Source: an uncultured Lachnospiraceae bacterium | GTDB taxonomy: Bacteria; Bacillota; Clostridia; Lachnospirales; Lachnospiraceae | Length of the DNA stretch: 64,000 nt | Direction: 5' to 3' | Assembly: GCA_944383265.1 (NCBI GenBank) | Contig: CALWOX010000009.1 | Location: forward strand, 1-64,000 | Part shown: positions 38,375 through 46,571 of the stretch, in pieces | Layout of the letters: every line of letters begins with the position of its first letter | How positions within the stretch are numbered: position 1 is the first letter of the stretch | Translations under genes and position numbers: made by a program | The notes under the pieces: generated by a model | Database searches by the model: none | Seen by the model: only the letters and a program-made list of their open reading frames with translations | What the model was told of the DNA's origin: nothing

Positions 38375-38899
38375 CTATTTAGTATCCATCAGCTGTCTCA
38401 TGACATATGAATATATCTTCTGGCTTTTTTCCTTCCAATTTCCTACCATATCCACCGCCTCTTTCTCATCGGGGACAGATATGTCGAGGCTGATGAGGAT
38501 GGTCTTTCCCTCACGTACCTCGCAGTGCACCACATAGCTGTGACTGTCGGTCTTGTAGTAATCCGCCGTAGTTCCGACTTCGGATCTCAGGCGGAATTTG
38601 TTTTCCTTAAGGAAATTGTCCATATCAAGCTTTACGGCCTGAGATATGTCCTTACCGAAAAAACCCAAGGTCTCCTCGCCGTCGGAGGTGATCTCGTAGC
38701 GCGTGGAATTTCCCATATGCCTGTCTGTTATAAGCTTTGAATCTATGAGCTCCGACAGTACCTGCTGCAGTGTAAAGTAGGTGGTGTATTCGTTGTCAAG
38801 GAAAAAACCTGTGAGCTGGCTGTTCGTAAGAGGAAAATTGACCTCGTTCAGCATATATAATATCATCAGTTTGTACAGTGTAATAGGTTCGGAAATCAT
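38375..38899 (-). CDS. DUF4364-family protein
   Basis: A 174-residue cytoplasmic protein (PF14277 type) that begins with a winged-helix-like segment: LYKLMILYMLNEVNFPLTNSQLTGF and the wing around SDGEETLGFF. Such a fold suggests DNA or RNA binding, but no function is proven. The start at ATG 38899 follows GAGAGG; TTG 38905 is less likely. It is divergent from the DUF5717 operon, 102 bases away. Confidence 0.82.
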   Translation of the reverse strand: MISEPITLYKLMILYMLNEVNFPLTNSQLTGFFLDNEYTTYFTLQQVLSELIDSKLITDRHMGNSTRYEITSDGEETLGFFGKDISQAVKLDMDNFLKENKFRLRSEVGTTADYYKTDSHSYVVHCEVREGKTILISLDISVPDEKEAVDMVGNWKEKSQKIYSYVMRQLMDTK

Positions 38900-38944
38900 A
38901 AGCAAAGCCTCTCTTTATAATATTTAAATCATACCATAAGATAC

Positions 38945-38973
38945 TTTAAAAGGAAATATAAATGTGATAGAAT
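38945..38973 (+). promoter_or_regulatory. Promoter of the DUF5717-DUF5716 operon
   Basis: TTTAAA (38945-38950), 17-base spacer, TAGAAT (38968-38973) with an extended TGA. Start point near 38980, about 22 bases before the first codon. Confidence 0.6.
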
Positions 38974-39001: not shown

Positions 39002-41632
39002 ATGAAGGAAAAAATAAATCGTCTCGCAAGAGGCATTTTCGAAAACGAAATACCGGAGCTTGAATATCCGGAGAGAATAGATGAGCTACTCGCCAAGAGA
39101 GGGATCTCGAGGGGAGAATTTTATGTGCGCTGCAAAGGAAGCGAGCACATAAAGGGGCTTTGCTATTCCGACAATATGAGAGTAGTCCCCGAGATAAAGA
39201 GCTACATAGGCTCGACGAACCGCATATTTTATACGGTTGACGCCTCCTTTGCTCCTGAGAATTCCCTGATAGAGGGAAATTTTTTCCTTGTGACAAGTGC
39301 AGGGGAATTTACCATCCCCTATTCCTTCAGGACACCTGCCTCGACGGCGGATAAGAATGTGTCGGGACTCCTTAAAAAGGAGGACATGAGGGCCTTATAT
39401 AATAAGGATGCTGAAAAGCTCCTTTTGCTTTTTGAGTGCGATGATTTTGTGAAGGCTCCCTTTATGGACAACGAGAGGCTCAGATGTCTCTATGACGGGC
39501 TCAGAGGCAGGGGCGACAGGATGCATGCCATGCGCCAGTTTATGTATGCCGCGGGGATCATAGCGGATACAGGGGAGGACAGAAGCTTAACTCTCGGAGA
39601 TGACAGGGAACTTACACATGAGCAGGAATTTCTCATAAACAATATACCTGATGACGAGGAGCTTCTTACGGAGCTCTGCAGGATAATGATAAGGGGGCGA
39701 GTGACGGAGCCCTTTGCCTATCATATATATGAAAAGGCCATAAGGCTTGACATAAAGCTTACGCAGCTCTATGAGTATTATCTGTATTCCTATCCGGAAG
39801 GCTGCAAGGACAGGATGCCGAAGGAAGTCCTCATGTACTTTTCCTATGACAGCGGCATAGACAAAAGAGTAAAGGCTCCTGTATACAAGAACATCCTTAC
39901 ATATATGAATCCGGATACGGATATATACAGAAGATACGAGGATGAAATGAGGGATTATGCCCTTGAATCCGTTTTTAAAAACAGGATAGATGAAAATCTT
40001 GCCGTGATATATGACAGGATGATATACAGAGACATGATAGATAGGAAGGTGGCGGCCGTATTCCCCTCCATACTTAAGACCTGCCTTATTGAATGCAGGG
40101 AGGGGATAATGCGACAGGTCACAGTCAGGTATCCTCAGCTCATGGAGGAGGAGGTATACAGGCTTAACCACGGAAGAGCTTATGTGCCTGTGTACTTTGA
40201 GGATGCGGTAATACTGTTTACGGATGTCTACGGCAACAGATATGCCGATGTGAAATTTACGAAGACCCCTGTGCTCACAAAGCCGGACCTTTTGAGGCGT
40301 TGCTTCGACGTCTACTCGGAGCATCCCATGCTTAAGATATCCGCTGCAAAAAAGATCGTGTCAGAAGGAATAAAGGATATGAACGGGAAGGCCATACTTG
40401 AGGATGTTATGAAGAGCTTTGACCTTAATCCCGTCTTCAGAAAAAAGCTTGTATCAAGGCTTATTCATTATAAGGGAAATACAGGCTTCCTCTCAAAGGT
40501 AAGGCAGGAGGAGCTCTCCGACGATGAAAGGCGGGCTGTGTTCTCCGACCTGGTATCCGACTCAAGGTACAGGGAAGCATACATAATGCTCAGAAAATAC
40601 GGAACAGCCTGTGCCGAGGCCTCGGATCTGTGTGAGGCTGTGAACAAGCTTGTGGCCATAAGCAGCGTGCCCGACGAGGAGAGAGAATTCTTTCTTGGAC
40701 TATGCTTTGAGGCCTTTAAACTTGGAGCAAGGGGCCCGGAACTTCTGGACTTTTTGTGCAGGGAGTACGAGGGCCCTACAGAGAGCATGTATCTTATTTT
40801 GACGGAGGCTGTGAGGCTTGACGCATATACTCACGACCTGTGCGAAAGACTTCTTGCAGCGCAGCTTTTCAGCGGAAGCGACGCCCACATAGACGAGGTT
40901 TTCAAGTATTATCTTGAGGAGGGAGACGCCAAGGAAAATCTTATAAAGGCATATCTCACTGCAAGAAGCAGCGCATACTTTGTGGATGAAAAGAGAGTCT
41001 CGGAGGGAGTCTTTGATTTTCTTGAGTCGATACTTTCGGATCTCAGAAACTACGAGAAGGCGCCTACTATATATCTGCTTGCTCTGACAAAGCATTACTC
41101 GGAGAAAAAGAGACTAAATCAGAAGCAGAGGAAGCTGTGCTCGGAGCTCATGGAGGTGCTGATATCGGAGGATTATATCTTCTATTACACTAAGCGCCTC
41201 GGAAAGCTCATAGATATACCTGTTGAGATAAAGAATAAATATTATATAGAGTATCACGGCAGCAAATACATAAGGCCTGTGCTCTATGTCAGAATAAAGC
41301 CTGAGGACACGGACTTCAGAAAAGAAGAGATGAGGCGGGTCTATCAGGGAATATATGTAAAGGATATGGTACTGTTCTCGGATGATGAGCTTAATTATAT
41401 GATCTATGACAGTGCCGTATCGGACGAGCCTGTGGAGAAGGGTATGATATCAGGAAAGCAGGGAAAGGGAGAGAAGACCGAGTCCAGAGCATCAAAGCTT
41501 GACGAGATAACAGCACTCTCGGAAAATGATGAAAAGACGGACGAGCTCAGAGAGAGCATGCTCTCCTATGCCATAAAGAACAGCATGAATGAGGAGCTGT
41601 TCAAGATCAAGGATTACGAAACTATACAGTAG
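39002..41632 (+). CDS. DUF5717-family protein (large helical-repeat protein)
   Basis: An 876-residue protein of a family known mainly from Lachnospiraceae, without assigned function. The N-terminal part (about 50-140) has beta-rich character (GNFFLVTSAGEFTIPYSFRTPAS), and most of the rest looks like helical repeats (short paired helices of 30-40 residues, e.g. around 150-400 and 480-730). No enzyme motif, signal peptide or membrane segment was found. It is first of three genes in one operon, followed by an Hsp70-like protein, and may act as its partner or scaffold. The start is ATG 39002. Confidence 0.8.
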   Translation: MKEKINRLARGIFENEIPELEYPERIDELLAKRGISRGEFYVRCKGSEHIKGLCYSDNMRVVPEIKSYIGSTNRIFYTVDASFAPENSLIEGNFFLVTSAGEFTIPYSFRTPASTADKNVSGLLKKEDMRALYNKDAEKLLLLFECDDFVKAPFMDNERLRCLYDGLRGRGDRMHAMRQFMYAAGIIADTGEDRSLTLGDDRELTHEQEFLINNIPDDEELLTELCRIMIRGRVTEPFAYHIYEKAIRLDIKLTQLYEYYLYSYPEGCKDRMPKEVLMYFSYDSGIDKRVKAPVYKNILTYMNPDTDIYRRYEDEMRDYALESVFKNRIDENLAVIYDRMIYRDMIDRKVAAVFPSILKTCLIECREGIMRQVTVRYPQLMEEEVYRLNHGRAYVPVYFEDAVILFTDVYGNRYADVKFTKTPVLTKPDLLRRCFDVYSEHPMLKISAAKKIVSEGIKDMNGKAILEDVMKSFDLNPVFRKKLVSRLIHYKGNTGFLSKVRQEELSDDERRAVFSDLVSDSRYREAYIMLRKYGTACAEASDLCEAVNKLVAISSVPDEEREFFLGLCFEAFKLGARGPELLDFLCREYEGPTESMYLILTEAVRLDAYTHDLCERLLAAQLFSGSDAHIDEVFKYYLEEGDAKENLIKAYLTARSSAYFVDEKRVSEGVFDFLESILSDLRNYEKAPTIYLLALTKHYSEKKRLNQKQRKLCSELMEVLISEDYIFYYTKRLGKLIDIPVEIKNKYYIEYHGSKYIRPVLYVRIKPEDTDFRKEEMRRVYQGIYVKDMVLFSDDELNYMIYDSAVSDEPVEKGMISGKQGKGEKTESRASKLDEITALSENDEKTDELRESMLSYAIKNSMNEELFKIKDYETIQ

Positions 41633-41646
41633 AGTTGGATAACAAA

Positions 41647-42876
41647 ATGAGTATTGCTTTAGGAATAGACCTCTGCAACGACTATACAGCCTGCAGGGTC
41701 TTCGGAACGGAAGATGACGAGGCCATATCCTTTCCCACGGTGGTATGCAAGAACAAAAAGACCGGAGAATGGGAGATAGGCGAGGAAGCTTACCGAATGG
41801 CGCTCTCGGGGGAGGGTGTCATAGTCGATAAGCTTCTTAAGCTTGCAAAAAAGGACGGCACTGCCACCATAGACGATATAAAATATGAGGCCTCTGAGCT
41901 TTTAAAGATATATCTCGGAAAGCTGATAGGAGTATGTCTGAAAAAATACGGAGATGACGAGATATCCCGACTTGTGGTCACCATAAAGGAGCTGAACAAA
42001 AAGCTTATGGATACCATAAAGGATGCGGGGACAGCTGTAGGTCTTTCAGGGGGAAGGATACATATAATAAGCCATACCGAGAGCTTTGTTTACTATGTGC
42101 TGAGCAGACCCAAGGAGCTCTACAATAACCAGGTGGCACTTTTTGACTGTTCCTCCTACAACCTCAGATATTATGAGATGAAGGTCATAAGAGGCGTCAA
42201 AAATGTGAGCGTCATGGCGGAGGGAAAATCCCTTGAGGAGGCCTTCAACACAGATATATTGAAAAATGAGGCGGGCAGAAGGCTTGCCGACCACATCCTT
42301 CGCTCCTGTGCGGAAAAGCTCATGTCGAAGAAAATATATTCGTCGGTTTTCCTTACGGGAGAGGCATTCAACACAGGTGAATGGGGAGAAGAGTTCTTCA
42401 AATTCATATGCAGCAGGAGGAGAGTCGGTATAGAACCGGGGCTTTTTGCTCTTGGAGCTGCGGTGAGAGCTGACGATTTCAACCATGGAGGGGTCAATTT
42501 CCCCTATGCTGTCATATGTGAGGGAAATCTTCCTGTAAATATCAGCATGAGCGTTACGGCAAGGGAGCAGGATACGAGGCTCCTTTTGGCGAGAGCGGGA
42601 GATCCATGGTATGAGACTACAGGGCATGTGGAGCTCATTCCCGCAGGACAGGATTATGTGGATATACACATTGAGGCCATTGATAAGGAACACAGGACGA
42701 GACTCATAAGGATACCCCTTGAGGGCTTTCCCGAGAGGCCGGACAGGACTACAAGGATAGGCCTTGACATAAGCTTTCCCGATGCGGGAAAAATGGAGAT
42801 CACAATAAATGACATGGGCTTCGGTGAGCTTTATCCCAAATCGGGGGCCATGATTCACGAGGAGATAGATTTATAA
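41647..42876 (+). CDS. DUF5716-family Hsp70/actin-fold protein
   Basis: A 409-residue protein with the plan of a small Hsp70. The N-terminal lobe starts with the phosphate-1-like loop LGIDLCNDYTACRVFG. A strand followed by VTIKELNKKLMDTIKDAGTAVGL matches the Hsp70 helix region, then HTESFVYYVL, a phosphate-2-like VALFDCSSYNLRYY and an adenosine-site SSVFLTGEAF. From about 300 a beta domain with EGFPERPDRTTRIGLDI and MEITINDMGFGELYP resembles the Hsp70 substrate-binding beta sandwich. The last helical lid is missing. The start at 41635 (TTG) or 41647 (ATG) is uncertain, since neither has a strong site. Chaperone-like ATPase activity is inferred. Confidence 0.8.
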   Translation: MSIALGIDLCNDYTACRVFGTEDDEAISFPTVVCKNKKTGEWEIGEEAYRMALSGEGVIVDKLLKLAKKDGTATIDDIKYEASELLKIYLGKLIGVCLKKYGDDEISRLVVTIKELNKKLMDTIKDAGTAVGLSGGRIHIISHTESFVYYVLSRPKELYNNQVALFDCSSYNLRYYEMKVIRGVKNVSVMAEGKSLEEAFNTDILKNEAGRRLADHILRSCAEKLMSKKIYSSVFLTGEAFNTGEWGEEFFKFICSRRRVGIEPGLFALGAAVRADDFNHGGVNFPYAVICEGNLPVNISMSVTAREQDTRLLLARAGDPWYETTGHVELIPAGQDYVDIHIEAIDKEHRTRLIRIPLEGFPERPDRTTRIGLDISFPDAGKMEITINDMGFGELYPKSGAMIHEEIDL

Positions 42877-43688
42877 TGTCGTTGCTTTTATGCAGGAACA
42901 GTGCAAGGCTTCCCTACTATATCGAGAAGGCTGATACAAGGATACATTCGATTCAGGAGCTTTGCTGGTTTATATATAATTATCCGCTTATCCTGACAGA
43001 GTCGCCCCTTGACAATGAGCTCATTGCATGGATAAAAAATGAGCTTTCCATGGGAATACTTGCAGAGAGGCTTGAAAGGCTTTCGGAGGCCGGAGAATCT
43101 GCGGAAAACATGATCTGCCTGATACTAAGAGAGGGAAATTATTACAATATAGACGAGATAAATTCCTTTAAGCAAAAGATGTCAGACCTGAAGAAGCTTG
43201 ACACTGAAAGACATCTTTTGGCGGAGGCCTCCACATATTTCAGGCTCGGGAGATTCGCAGAGGCGGGAGACCTCTTCTGCGAGGCGGAGAGATATCTGAG
43301 AAATAAAATAAAGAAAAATGTCACAGAGGACAGAAATGAGCTTTCCGAGAGACTCTCGGATGTGATTTGTGATGAGGCGGTCTGCAGACTCAGACTCTTT
43401 GATGACGACAGAGCAAAGGCCCTCCTTTTGGAGGGGGCCGAGATGGCGGAAAACTCAAGATGTGCCGAGTATCTTTACCTCATGGATGAGGAAAAAGGAG
43501 CTAAGTACATAACAGAAGAGAAAAAAGCGGAGCTCTCGGAGAGAAGAGAAGAGGCCAGACAAAAGGCAATGCTCGGTAAGAACTGCAGAGAGGTCGCCGA
43601 GATATTTGAGAAGGATTCCGTAAAAAGAAATGAAGAGATAAGGAAGCTTATCTCCGAATGGAAAAGTGTTTATAGGAAAATGGTATAA
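42876..43688 (+). CDS. Helical-repeat protein of the DUF5717/DUF5716 operon
   Basis: A 270-residue soluble protein, not recognised as a named family. It begins with a basic-aromatic segment (SLLLCRNSARLPYYIEKADTRIHSIQELCWFIYNYPLIL), and from about 110 to 200 has TPR-like pairs (AEASTYFRLGRFAEAGDLFCEAERYL). The end is a charged helix. Its ATG overlaps the stop of the upstream gene as TAATG, so translation is coupled. It probably works with the two upstream proteins. Confidence 0.75.
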   Translation: MSLLLCRNSARLPYYIEKADTRIHSIQELCWFIYNYPLILTESPLDNELIAWIKNELSMGILAERLERLSEAGESAENMICLILREGNYYNIDEINSFKQKMSDLKKLDTERHLLAEASTYFRLGRFAEAGDLFCEAERYLRNKIKKNVTEDRNELSERLSDVICDEAVCRLRLFDDDRAKALLLEGAEMAENSRCAEYLYLMDEEKGAKYITEEKKAELSERREEARQKAMLGKNCREVAEIFEKDSVKRNEEIRKLISEWKSVYRKMV

Positions 43689-43708
43689 GATTTACGAAGC
43701 GCTTATTC

Positions 43709-43875
43709 GATATGAATATCAAAGCTTTTTTACAAAAGCCACTGCGTAAGCGTTCGCCTTTTCAAAACTCGGAAACCGAAGGTTTCCTCAGACAATTGAA
43801 AAAGCTCGAAGTTAATAAGACTCGTGCTTACTCCGTGAACGGCTTAATCAGTAAAAAATCTTTGATATTCATATC
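43709..43875. repeat. Fold-back element with 25-base inverted ends before valS
   Basis: The ends 43709-43733 (starting GATATGAATATCAAAG) and 43851-43875 are inverted copies with one mismatch in 25. The 117-base middle holds a perfect hairpin GGAAACC-GAA-GGTTTCC (43771-43787) and further pairing of CACTGCGTAAGCG with CGTGCTTACTCCGTG. The whole could fold into one long arm. It lies 38 bases upstream of valS. No transposase frame and no T-box core (GGTGGNACC) is present. Confidence 0.85.
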
Positions 43876-43913
43876 ACAAAGCGCAGCAGCAATTCATACG
43901 AGGAGAACAGATT

Positions 43914-46571
43914 ATGAAAGAACTTGCAAAGACCTACGATCCTCAGGAGATGGAACCGAGGATATATGAGAATTGGCTTAAAAAGGGTTATTTTCATGCG
44001 AATGTAAATTCAGACAAAAAGCCCTTTTCGGTTATGATGCCCCCGCCTAACGTAACAGGACAGCTTCATATGGGACATGCTTTGGACAATACGCTTCAGG
44101 ACAGCATATGCCGCTTTAAAAGGATGCAGGGCTATGAGGTGCTTTGGCAGCCGGGAACAGATCATGCGGCTATTGCCACCGAGGTCAAGGTCATCAACAA
44201 GCTGAAGTCCGAGGGAAAGGACAAGCATGAGCTCGGCAGAGAAGGCTTCCTCAAGGAGGCATGGGCCTGGAAGGAAGAGTACGAGAGCCGAATACTTAAG
44301 CAGATGTATAAGATGGGAGCAGGCGCGGATTGGGAAAGGAAGCGCTTTACCATGGATGAGGGTTGCTCCGAGGCTGTAAAGAAGGTATTTATAGATCTCT
44401 ACAACAAGGGCTACATATATAAAGGAAATCGAATCATAAACTGGTGTCCTGTCTGCAAGACCTCTATTTCCGATGCTGAGGTCATCCATGAAGATCAGGA
44501 CGGATTTTTCTGGCATATAAATTATCCTATAGTGGGAGAGGAGGGCAGATTTGTTGAGATAGCCACCACTCGCCCCGAGACTATGCTCGGAGATACTGCT
44601 GTTGCGGTAAATCCCGATGATGACAGGTACAAGGATCTTGTGGGAAAGATGCTTAAGCTTCCTCTTACGGACAGAGTCATTCCCGTGGTTGCCGACGAAT
44701 ATGTGGACAAGGAGTTCGGAACAGGCTGCGTAAAGATAACTCCCGCCCATGACCCTAACGACTTTGAGGTGGGAAAGAGGCATGATCTTCCCGAGATATG
44801 CATAATGAACGATGATGCCACCATAAACTGCCCCGGTTCAAAGTATGACGGACTTGACAGATATGAGGCGAGAAAGCTGATAGTTGAGGACCTTAAGGCT
44901 GAGGGACTTTTGGTAAAGGTGGTTCCCCATTGCCACAGCGTAGGGACTCACGACCGATGCGGCACCACAGTGGAGCCTATGGTAAAGCCTCAGTGGTTCG
45001 TAAAGATGGATAAATTTGCAAAGGACTGCAAGGATGCTCTTAGCTCGGGCGAGTTGAGATTTGTTCCCGAGAACTATGCAAAGACTTATATTCACTGGCT
45101 CGACAATATAAAAGACTGGTGCATAAGCAGACAGCTTTGGTGGGGACACAGGATACCCGCCTACTACTGCAAAAAGTGCGGAAAGCTTATTGTTGCGGAG
45201 GATATGCCTGATAAGTGCCCTGACTGCGGCGGAACTGAATTTGCTCAGGATGAGGATACCCTTGATACATGGTTTTCATCAGCCCTCTGGCCCTTCAGCA
45301 CACTGGGATGGCCAAAGGAGACTCCCGAGTTTAAGAAGTTTTACCCCACAAATGTGCTTGTGACAGGATATGACATCATCTTCTTCTGGGTAATAAGGAT
45401 GGTATTTTCAGGTATTGAGCATACCGGAAAGTGCCCGTTTAATACAGTGCTCATGCACGGACTTGTGAGAGACTCTCAGGGAAGAAAGATGAGCAAGTCC
45501 TTAGGAAACGGAATAGATCCTCTTGAGGTCGTAGACAAGTATGGCGCCGACGCTCTCCGCGCCGCTCTACTTACAGGAAATGCTCCCGGAAACGATATGC
45601 GTTTCTATTGGGAGAAGGTGGAGAATGAGAGAAACTTCGCAAACAAGGTATGGAACGCCACAAGGTTTATAATGATGAACCTTGACAAGGCAAAGGATCC
45701 CTCCTGTTTAAAGGGAGACGGCAGCGGACTTAAATTTACTATTGAGGACAAGTGGATACTTTCAAAGCTTAATTCTCTGGTTCAGAAGGTCACAGCAAAT
45801 ATGGAGGCCTTTGACCTCGGAATAGCTCTTGATAATGTTACGGACTTTATTTGGGATGAATTCTGTGACTGGTATATAGAGATGGTAAAGCCCAGACTTT
45901 ATTCTGATGAGGATGAGACAAAGGATGCGGCTCTTTGGACACTTAAGACTGTGCTTACAGACGCCTTAAAGCTTCTTCATCCTTTCATGCCCTTTATCAC
46001 AGAGGAAATATTTACGAATATTCAGGATGAAGAGGAATCCATCGTCATCTCCGCATACCCTGTATATAAGGCCGAGCGCGAGTTCAAGAAGGAAGAATCT
46101 GAGATAGAGAGCATAAAGGAAGCTGTGAGGGCAATAAGGACTGTTCGCACAGACATGAATGTTCCTCCCTCAAGAAAGGCAAAAGTATATATCGTATCAG
46201 AAAAAGATGAACTTCTTGATACATTTAAGAATACATCCAAAGTATTCGCGGTTTTGTGCGGCGCATCAGAGGTTATCTGTCAAAAGACAAAGGACGGAAT
46301 AGACGATAATGCGGTATCAGCAGTCATAGCAAATGCCTCAATATACATGCCTCTTTCCGAACTCGTTGACATAGAAAAGGAGCTTGAGAGACTTAAAAAG
46401 GAGGAAAAGCGCCTTGAGGGAGAGCTGAAGCGCTCCAAAGGAATGCTTTCAAATGAGAAATTCATATCAAAGGCTCCTGCCGCAAAAATAGAAGAGGAAA
46501 AGGCAAAGCTTGAAAAGTATGAGCAGATGATGAAGGAGGTCAAGGACAGGATAGAAAGCCTTGGCAGGTAA
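43914..46571 (+). CDS. valS: Valyl-tRNA synthetase
   Basis: An 885-residue class Ia synthetase that charges tRNA-Val. HIGH-type motif is HMGH (52-55) in PPPNVTGQLHMGHALDN, and KMSKS lies near residue 525. The editing CP1 domain (TTRPETMLGDTAVAVNP) removes mis-charged threonine. A C-terminal coiled coil (about 810-880, LVDIEKELERLKKEEKRLEG) is typical. The start follows GAGGAG. No T-box leader was found; a fold-back element lies upstream instead. Confidence 0.98.
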   Translation: MKELAKTYDPQEMEPRIYENWLKKGYFHANVNSDKKPFSVMMPPPNVTGQLHMGHALDNTLQDSICRFKRMQGYEVLWQPGTDHAAIATEVKVINKLKSEGKDKHELGREGFLKEAWAWKEEYESRILKQMYKMGAGADWERKRFTMDEGCSEAVKKVFIDLYNKGYIYKGNRIINWCPVCKTSISDAEVIHEDQDGFFWHINYPIVGEEGRFVEIATTRPETMLGDTAVAVNPDDDRYKDLVGKMLKLPLTDRVIPVVADEYVDKEFGTGCVKITPAHDPNDFEVGKRHDLPEICIMNDDATINCPGSKYDGLDRYEARKLIVEDLKAEGLLVKVVPHCHSVGTHDRCGTTVEPMVKPQWFVKMDKFAKDCKDALSSGELRFVPENYAKTYIHWLDNIKDWCISRQLWWGHRIPAYYCKKCGKLIVAEDMPDKCPDCGGTEFAQDEDTLDTWFSSALWPFSTLGWPKETPEFKKFYPTNVLVTGYDIIFFWVIRMVFSGIEHTGKCPFNTVLMHGLVRDSQGRKMSKSLGNGIDPLEVVDKYGADALRAALLTGNAPGNDMRFYWEKVENERNFANKVWNATRFIMMNLDKAKDPSCLKGDGSGLKFTIEDKWILSKLNSLVQKVTANMEAFDLGIALDNVTDFIWDEFCDWYIEMVKPRLYSDEDETKDAALWTLKTVLTDALKLLHPFMPFITEEIFTNIQDEEESIVISAYPVYKAEREFKKEESEIESIKEAVRAIRTVRTDMNVPPSRKAKVYIVSEKDELLDTFKNTSKVFAVLCGASEVICQKTKDGIDDNAVSAVIANASIYMPLSELVDIEKELERLKKEEKRLEGELKRSKGMLSNEKFISKAPAAKIEEEKAKLEKYEQMMKEVKDRIESLGR

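Follow-up and report, generated by a model that had tools for sequence, protein, structure and literature searches.

The 64,000-nucleotide stretch analyzed here (assembly GCA_944383265.1, contig CALWOX010000009.1 of an uncultured Lachnospiraceae bacterium; hereafter the window) carries three same-direction genes on its forward strand, located between a divergent DUF4364 gene (38375-38905) and a valS-like open reading frame (ORF; 43914-46571). Gene 1 (39002..41632) encodes an 876 amino acid protein with DUF5717_N and DUF5717 domains and is a probable scaffold; gene 2 (41647..42876) encodes a 409 amino acid DUF5716 protein, predicted to be a degenerate Hsp70 without a lid; and gene 3 (42876..43688) encodes a 270 amino acid relative of TPR proteins. 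The ORFs were found at the positions and with the tight spacing reported in an initial annotation of this locus, and so was the TAATG (42874..42878) in which the stop codon of gene 2 overlaps the start of gene 3. Our analysis suggests that gene 2 descends from one member of a multi-Hsp70 operon found in other families of the order Lachnospirales, and that it has lost the nucleotide site of the Hsp70 family.

Gene 2 belongs to the DUF5716_C family of Pfam (PF18980; 297.6 bits, with a curated cut-off of 34.7). On its own, the protein gave a weak match to DnaK in the PDB set (E = 0.043), and in whole-genome searches it retrieved its orthologues together with DnaK-sized frames with approximately 30% identity over residues 32-161, including the DnaK of the window's own genome (30% identity over the same residues, E = 3e-5). 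A profile built from 41 relatives matched solved DnaK structures across the nucleotide-binding domain and the beta-sandwich of the substrate-binding domain (SBD-beta), the best match being 2v7y (E = 2.1e-17), with profile positions 4-403 aligned to DnaK residues 1-461. The beta-sandwich region lies approximately at 42505..42837 and ends in the family motif D-x-G-F-G-E. A median of only 16 residues follows this last conserved SBD-beta motif in the 37 of 38 DUF5716 rows that have it, indicating that the lid is missing. On the strength of this profile, gene 2 is an Hsp70 by descent and probably by fold class, homologous to DnaK/Hsp70 (PF00012) in its nucleotide-binding domain and beta-sandwich. 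The Hsp70-like plan with a beta sandwich and no lid, which the initial annotation had proposed, is therefore supported, and the profile places the protein within rather than outside the actin/Hsp70 class. A weak Pfam match of gene 2 to ATLF (E = 0.21) was taken as chance.

Unlike DnaK, gene 2 has lost most of the residues of the nucleotide site. In the window copy, GIDLCNDYT (41662..41688) replaces the Hsp70 phosphate-1 loop GIDLGTTNS; SHTESF (42070..42087) replaces NEPTAA, with loss of the Glu; ALFDCSSYNL (42136..42165) replaces the phosphate-2 loop DLGGGTFD; and FLTGEAF (42349..42369) replaces the adenosine loop VGGSTR. Twelve nucleotide-site positions were scored in a single alignment from which short and duplicate rows were excluded, and are numbered as in E. 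coli DnaK. None of the 37 DUF5716 rows counted (of 38) keeps more than four of the twelve residues; Lys-70 and Glu-171 survive in 0/37 rows, D194 in 28/37. The distance between the phosphate-2 and adenosine loops has a median of 71 residues (range 59-139), compared with 143 in DnaK, so that the IIA-IIB stretch is about half the DnaK length and the missing part spans much of subdomain IIB. The remodelled loops are themselves conserved, with a Cys at the G10 position in 25/37 rows, an Asp at T12 in 25/37 and a His at E171 in 30/37. With both phosphate loops, the adenosine loop, the site's Lys and Glu residues and the lid lost, gene 2 is predicted to encode no working Hsp70 ATPase, and since the residues that bind and hydrolyze ATP are among those lost, the protein should be negative in an ATPase assay.

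In other families of the Lachnospirales, relatives of genes 1 and 3 flank a larger set of genes in the order DUF5717, Hsp70-A, GrpE-fusion, Hsp70-B, Hsp70-C, Hsp70-D (with a VWA domain) and TPR; such relatives flank the Hsp70 part in both the short and this extended operon. In one such locus (L036), Pfam identified a DUF5717 protein of 907 amino acids, an Hsp70-A of 559 amino acids, a 645 amino acid protein with a C-terminal GrpE domain, and the B, C, D and TPR genes. Hsp70-B of this locus matches both the DUF5716_C and the HSP70 models, and the HSP70 matches of all four Hsp70 proteins stop at model positions 471-501 of 599, leaving the lid part unmatched. Two of the proteins have further unusual parts: Hsp70-D (L036:10599-12674 and its relatives) harbors its VWA domain in the position normally taken by the Hsp70 lid, and at E 0.1 no Pfam model matched the long N-terminal part of the 645 amino acid GrpE protein (L036:5376-7310).

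When named genomes were scanned with the VWA part, 101 relatives were confirmed, and the loci of the best 80 of these 101 were examined. They come mostly from Defluviitaleaceae, and also from Candidatus Epulonipiscium, Defluviitalea phaphyphila, one Vallitaleaceae and unplaced Clostridia. The full run A-GrpE-B-C-D was present in one order in 36 of the 80 loci and a partial run in 40, at contig ends or with the set split. The other four loci (Planctomycetes, Chloroflexi) were rejected as instances of the system, having the VWA part only and no matches to the Hsp70, GrpE or TPR models among their neighbors.

The two operon forms also share neighbors. M2, a protein in which coiled coils flank two or three hydrophobic stretches, is encoded directly after the TPR-gene position in five extended loci, with valS beyond it in four of the five; additional cases were also seen. 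Among 11 genomes of the window's own family examined, M2 was found in three, located after gene 3 (read directly in G061); it was not found in the window's genome. In this family, the loci long enough to show gene order have genes 1, 2 and 3 in that order and mostly valS after gene 3. The M2 and valS neighbors thus tie the short and extended operons to each other by position. A second membrane protein, M1, was rejected as a constant part of the system, with strong matches only in the four genomes from which its alignment was made and weak, partial matches in 4/20 others. Some extended operons are preceded by a gene for a protein that combines three hydrophobic stretches, or two in L154, with a long tail resembling a coiled coil (L142:10195-11640, L143:2730-3947, L150:3831-5150 and L154:5770-7152), a layout that we take to resemble proton-channel-type proteins with long tails.

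The nucleotide site shows different degrees of conservation among the Hsp70 proteins of the extended operon. All twelve residues are present in every row counted of Hsp70-A (42 of 53 rows), C (63 of 76) and D (80 of 96), while Hsp70-B (49 of 58) has at most six, an intermediate state of decay; the distance between its phosphate-2 and adenosine loops has a median of 143 residues. Profile comparison with hhalign matched the gene 2 family to B at 100%, to C at 99.6%, to D at 90.4% and to A at 70.2%; the corresponding value for the gene 1 family and the long DUF5717 proteins was 100%. In a maximum-likelihood tree of 62 sampled Hsp70 rows (10 each of A, C and D, and 14 of DUF5716), A, C and D each formed one group (support of 100/100 in all three cases), as did DUF5716 (100/98), and the sister of DUF5716 was the B protein of genome G039 (99/99). 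This B protein comes from a full extended operon, in which the D and TPR genes are each split into two frames. By this tree, gene 2 descends from Hsp70-B, and the origin of the short operon would be explained most simply by the loss of A, GrpE, C and D.

Gene 1 matches both Pfam models of its family, DUF5717_N (PF18984, 403.7 bits) and DUF5717 (PF18983, 224.5 bits), well above the cut-off of 25. In other families it is homologous to two separate proteins, of approximately 400 and 900 amino acids. The smaller one is encoded upstream in several genomes and aligns with the N-terminal part of DUF5717 (model positions 37-276 in L038 and 1-289 in L144; profile-profile probability 99.9%), which means either that gene 1 fuses two proteins or that these were split elsewhere. 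Longer relatives of gene 1 (1174-1227 amino acids) contain a middle part of some 300 residues that, by alignment, is absent from the window's genus; in gene 1 the gap falls approximately at 39554..39622.

This missing part bears on the claim, made in the initial annotation, that genes 1 and 3 consist of helical repeats. For gene 1 the claim holds in part only: TPR_19 was matched by 2 of 36 rows, and the match of the gene 1 profile to a TPR structure (E = 0.0011) falls in the region that the window copy lacks. The long DUF5717 proteins of other families matched the longer TPR relatives near their N-terminus (profile-profile, 88.7%). The N-terminus of gene 1 is probably a different, beta-rich domain, to judge by its sequence pattern. 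A TPR fold throughout gene 1 was rejected, with probabilities of 1.4% in comparison with the gene 3 profile and 10.9% for the gene 1 family with the longer TPR relatives. For gene 3, the claim draws support from its relatives, since 22 of 38 rows match TPR_2 and the family matches the TPR protein of the extended operon at 99.6-99.7% (profile-profile). The window copy itself has no TPR_2 match or any other Pfam match at 0.05, and gene 3 belongs to no Pfam or NCBIfam family. Two weak Pfam hits, DUF483 for gene 1 (E = 0.063) and DUF5069 for gene 3 (E = 0.071), were attributed to chance.

The initial annotation also suggested that the three proteins could act together in a system limited to Lachnospiraceae-like bacteria, and the genome searches agree in that the families of genes 1 and 2 occur together and, in the samples searched, gave matches only within the order. 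Among 196 genomes of the order, at a presence threshold of E ≤ 0.001, DUF5717 was found in 93 and DUF5716 in 89 (92 and 82 over the Pfam cut-offs); both were present in 88, DUF5717 only in five, DUF5716 only in one and neither in 102 (Fisher p = 2e-48, not corrected for relatedness), rather than each family occurring freely without the other. In 24 of the 88 genomes the genes are not closely linked, lying on different contigs in 23 and 44 kb apart in one; the association is not only one of linkage, and many of these assemblies are fragmented. Five of the six exceptions, all but G177, show a contig edge inside the operon (G041 and G158), a divergent B gene below threshold (G105 and G167), or an unrecognized 433 amino acid gene in the B position (G084). 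In the window's family, gene 2 and DUF5717 were each found in the same 36 of 37 genomes, G010 having neither; with 21 further listed genomes that have both, the total is 57 of 58, although the list is incomplete for genomes without a match and further members of the family may lack both genes. In wider samples, DUF5717 was found in 10 of 291 genomes of the class and DUF5716 in 4 of 299 of the phylum, all from the window's family, and searches of 14 control genomes with both families gave no match. One genome assigned to another family (G203 of family f8, locus L152) has a short operon of the window-family type, and three other listed genomes of f8 lack DUF5717; this may reflect misbinning or transfer.

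The three genes diverge in step with one another and are under purifying selection. Across 20 genomes of the window's family, their protein distances correlate with one another (Mantel r 0.88-0.91) and with those of valS (r 0.82-0.85), with 0/2000 permutations as high, and mean protein distances are 0.58-0.66 for genes 1-3 compared with 0.27 for valS. Relative to two close relatives, nonsynonymous divergence (pN) was 0.11-0.20 and synonymous divergence (pS) 0.70-0.86; synonymous sites are near saturation, so that the ratios of 0.05-0.11 are rough, and none was obtained for gene 3.

Several further features of the locus are worth describing. The start of gene 2 is placed at ATG 41647; an in-frame TTG at 41635, which would give a 413 amino acid protein, is a possible alternative, but the ATG is favored because the closest relatives (L041 and L042) start at the matching codon. 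In 17 of 33 relatives examined, a start codon overlaps the stop of gene 2, putatively as the actual start of gene 3. The initial annotation placed the three genes behind one promoter. A weak promoter-like site exists at 38945..38973 (forward strand; TTTAAA, 17 nucleotides and TAGAAT, with a TG before the second hexamer), but the scan yielded 14 such sites against 9.2 ± 3.4 in shuffled sequences, and the excess is not clear. The DUF4364 gene that precedes gene 1 on the reverse strand may encode a regulator, and in a more distant genome of the same family (L151) a DUF4364-like sequence, identified by eye, lies near gene 1 with one ORF between. Downstream, the label of the valS-like ORF was taken from its valyl-tRNA-synthetase-like sequence. 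A repeat with 25-nucleotide inverted arms 117 nucleotides apart occupies 43695-43890, between gene 3 and valS, and seven more partial copies with 78-90% identity occur in the same genome; an 85 amino acid ORF (43712-43969) lies mostly within it and is probably no gene. An RNA element at the locus was rejected, as the sole Rfam match was sub-threshold and inside recO.

Taking these results together, we propose with moderate confidence that the operon encodes what is left of a formerly larger, dedicated Hsp70 machine, namely its non-catalytic core, and that it would act as an ATP-independent scaffold or client-holding complex. On the wider scale, it is about an even call that Lachnospirales carry a dedicated multi-Hsp70 machine from which Lachnospiraceae dropped the ATPases, keeping an ATP-independent pseudo-Hsp70 complex as a core component of the cell. 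Such a machine would comprise one degenerate and three motif-intact lidless Hsp70s, a GrpE fusion and a VWA domain at the place of the lid, together with a scaffold (DUF5717), a subunit of TPR type and, in some genomes, coiled-coil proteins of the membrane, a composition that shares in the same even estimate. The three proteins of the window would form one complex, in which gene 1 would serve as scaffold and gene 3, the TPR relative, as docking subunit. The pseudo-Hsp70 would work without an ATP cycle, either by binding a client or subunit in a fixed manner by way of its beta-sandwich or by holding the complex together as a structural copy of an Hsp70. In the other families, Hsp70-A, C and D would supply ATP-driven cycling and the GrpE fusion would serve as exchange factor.

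A number of observations weigh against this proposal. In the tree, the B rows do not form one group: two long branches, L130 and L135, separate from the others at low support (59/43). The tree program also flagged several B rows, including the one from G039, for unusual residue composition. Loss of motif residues may still leave nucleotide binding by another mode. G177 has DUF5717 and no detected DUF5716. Finally, the DUF5716 model also matches the paralogue Hsp70-C, which gave the best match in seven genomes (G072, G134, G143, G159, G175, G222 and G226). In six of those seven, and in the weakly matching G091, our own models located a B gene at the B position; G222 was counted on Hsp70-C alone, with only C and D seen on a short contig.

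The alternative that fares best, although we consider it unlikely, is that the operon encodes a co-chaperone module for the housekeeping DnaK, in which gene 2 would pair with DnaK in the manner of Hsp110, genes 1 and 3 would bring clients, and DnaK would replace Hsp70-A, C and D. Its appeal lies in the Hsp70 complement: in 11 of 12 genomes of the window's family examined, no full-length Hsp70 other than DnaK is present and the remaining frames are short (274-377 amino acids), G216 being the genome with more; additional Hsp70s were found in 12/12 genomes with the extended form, and the extended operon itself sets B beside motif-intact Hsp70s and a GrpE fusion. No J-domain family was found, however, among the ten proteins scanned by Pfam, and the HPD triplet occurs in 19/76 C, 3/41 gene 1, 1/58 B and 1/62 TPR rows, which we took as chance; in addition, dnaK lies on another contig of the window's genome. 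Hsp110-type proteins bind ATP and have extended C-terminal parts. They resemble gene 2 as divergent Hsp70s, gene 2 possibly likewise serving another Hsp70, but gene 2 by its sequence should not bind ATP and lacks an extended C-terminus.

The conservation of the remodelled loops, together with the D194 position, would also fit a protein that binds a nucleotide or another ligand in a remodelled cleft and acts as a switch. We regard this as improbable, given the loss of the phosphate loops, of the Lys and Glu positions and of roughly half the IIA-IIB stretch.

More doubtful still is a role in defense or biological conflict, which two systems in the literature bring to mind. The closest gene set that we found is the Hsp70/GrpE theme of GAP1-N2 GTPases, which (Kaur et al., 2020; PMC7159879) combines an Hsp70 and a GrpE with a second Hsp70 of reduced form, with TPR or beta-sandwich partners and with membrane parts; that second Hsp70 is without a peptide-binding domain, whereas the degenerate Hsp70 described here retains its beta-sandwich. 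Among Hsp70-like parts that are nearly inactive, the closest precedent we found is CnuD of the CoCoNuTs (PMC11090510): its Hsp70-like domains, located next to helical repeats, are described as carrying degenerate nucleotide motifs, and the protein is considered nearly inactive. CnuD accompanies McrB/McrC-type proteins, and the likeness is drawn from this description. Gene 3 also has a partial match to GajB in PADLOC (14.4 bits, E = 0.0032), its only match there. Nevertheless, genes 1 and 2 have no PADLOC match, and membership in the GAP1-N2 group was rejected because the GAP1-M domain was found in 0/17 genomes (one of 14 control genomes matched). The near-universal presence in the window's family and distances that follow valS also speak against a conflict system, as does the result from viral contigs, in which 21 stretches matched the single short motif used and none was confirmed as a relative, so that a phage origin was likewise rejected. 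That the operon is a decaying relic without present function is hardly credible: nucleotide-site residue loss does grow from B to DUF5716, but the genes are under purifying selection, both families persist in nearly all listed genomes of the window's family and the overlapping start/stop is kept in about half of the relatives.

The Pfam descriptions of DUF5716_C and DUF5717_N/DUF5717, of which genes 2 and 1 are members, give no function; what is new over these named families is the Hsp70 origin of DUF5716 and the longer operon. In the open-licence literature, nothing was found on either family or on the longer operon: DUF5717 is never named, DUF5716 is named only in PMC8115291, a paper about cancer and curcuma, and a full-text search of PMC7159879 and PMC11090510 found neither name.

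Pseudoenzymes are familiar among kinases. If the proposed non-catalytic core of an Hsp70 machine is real, a near-universal pseudo-Hsp70, with ATP-competent companions still present next to its relatives in sister families, would constitute a natural experiment on the role that an Hsp70 can play without ATP, and the four-Hsp70 operon would be accessible in a named species, Defluviitalea phaphyphila. It would also provide a first functional frame for two DUF families present in 57 of the 58 listed genomes of the window's family.

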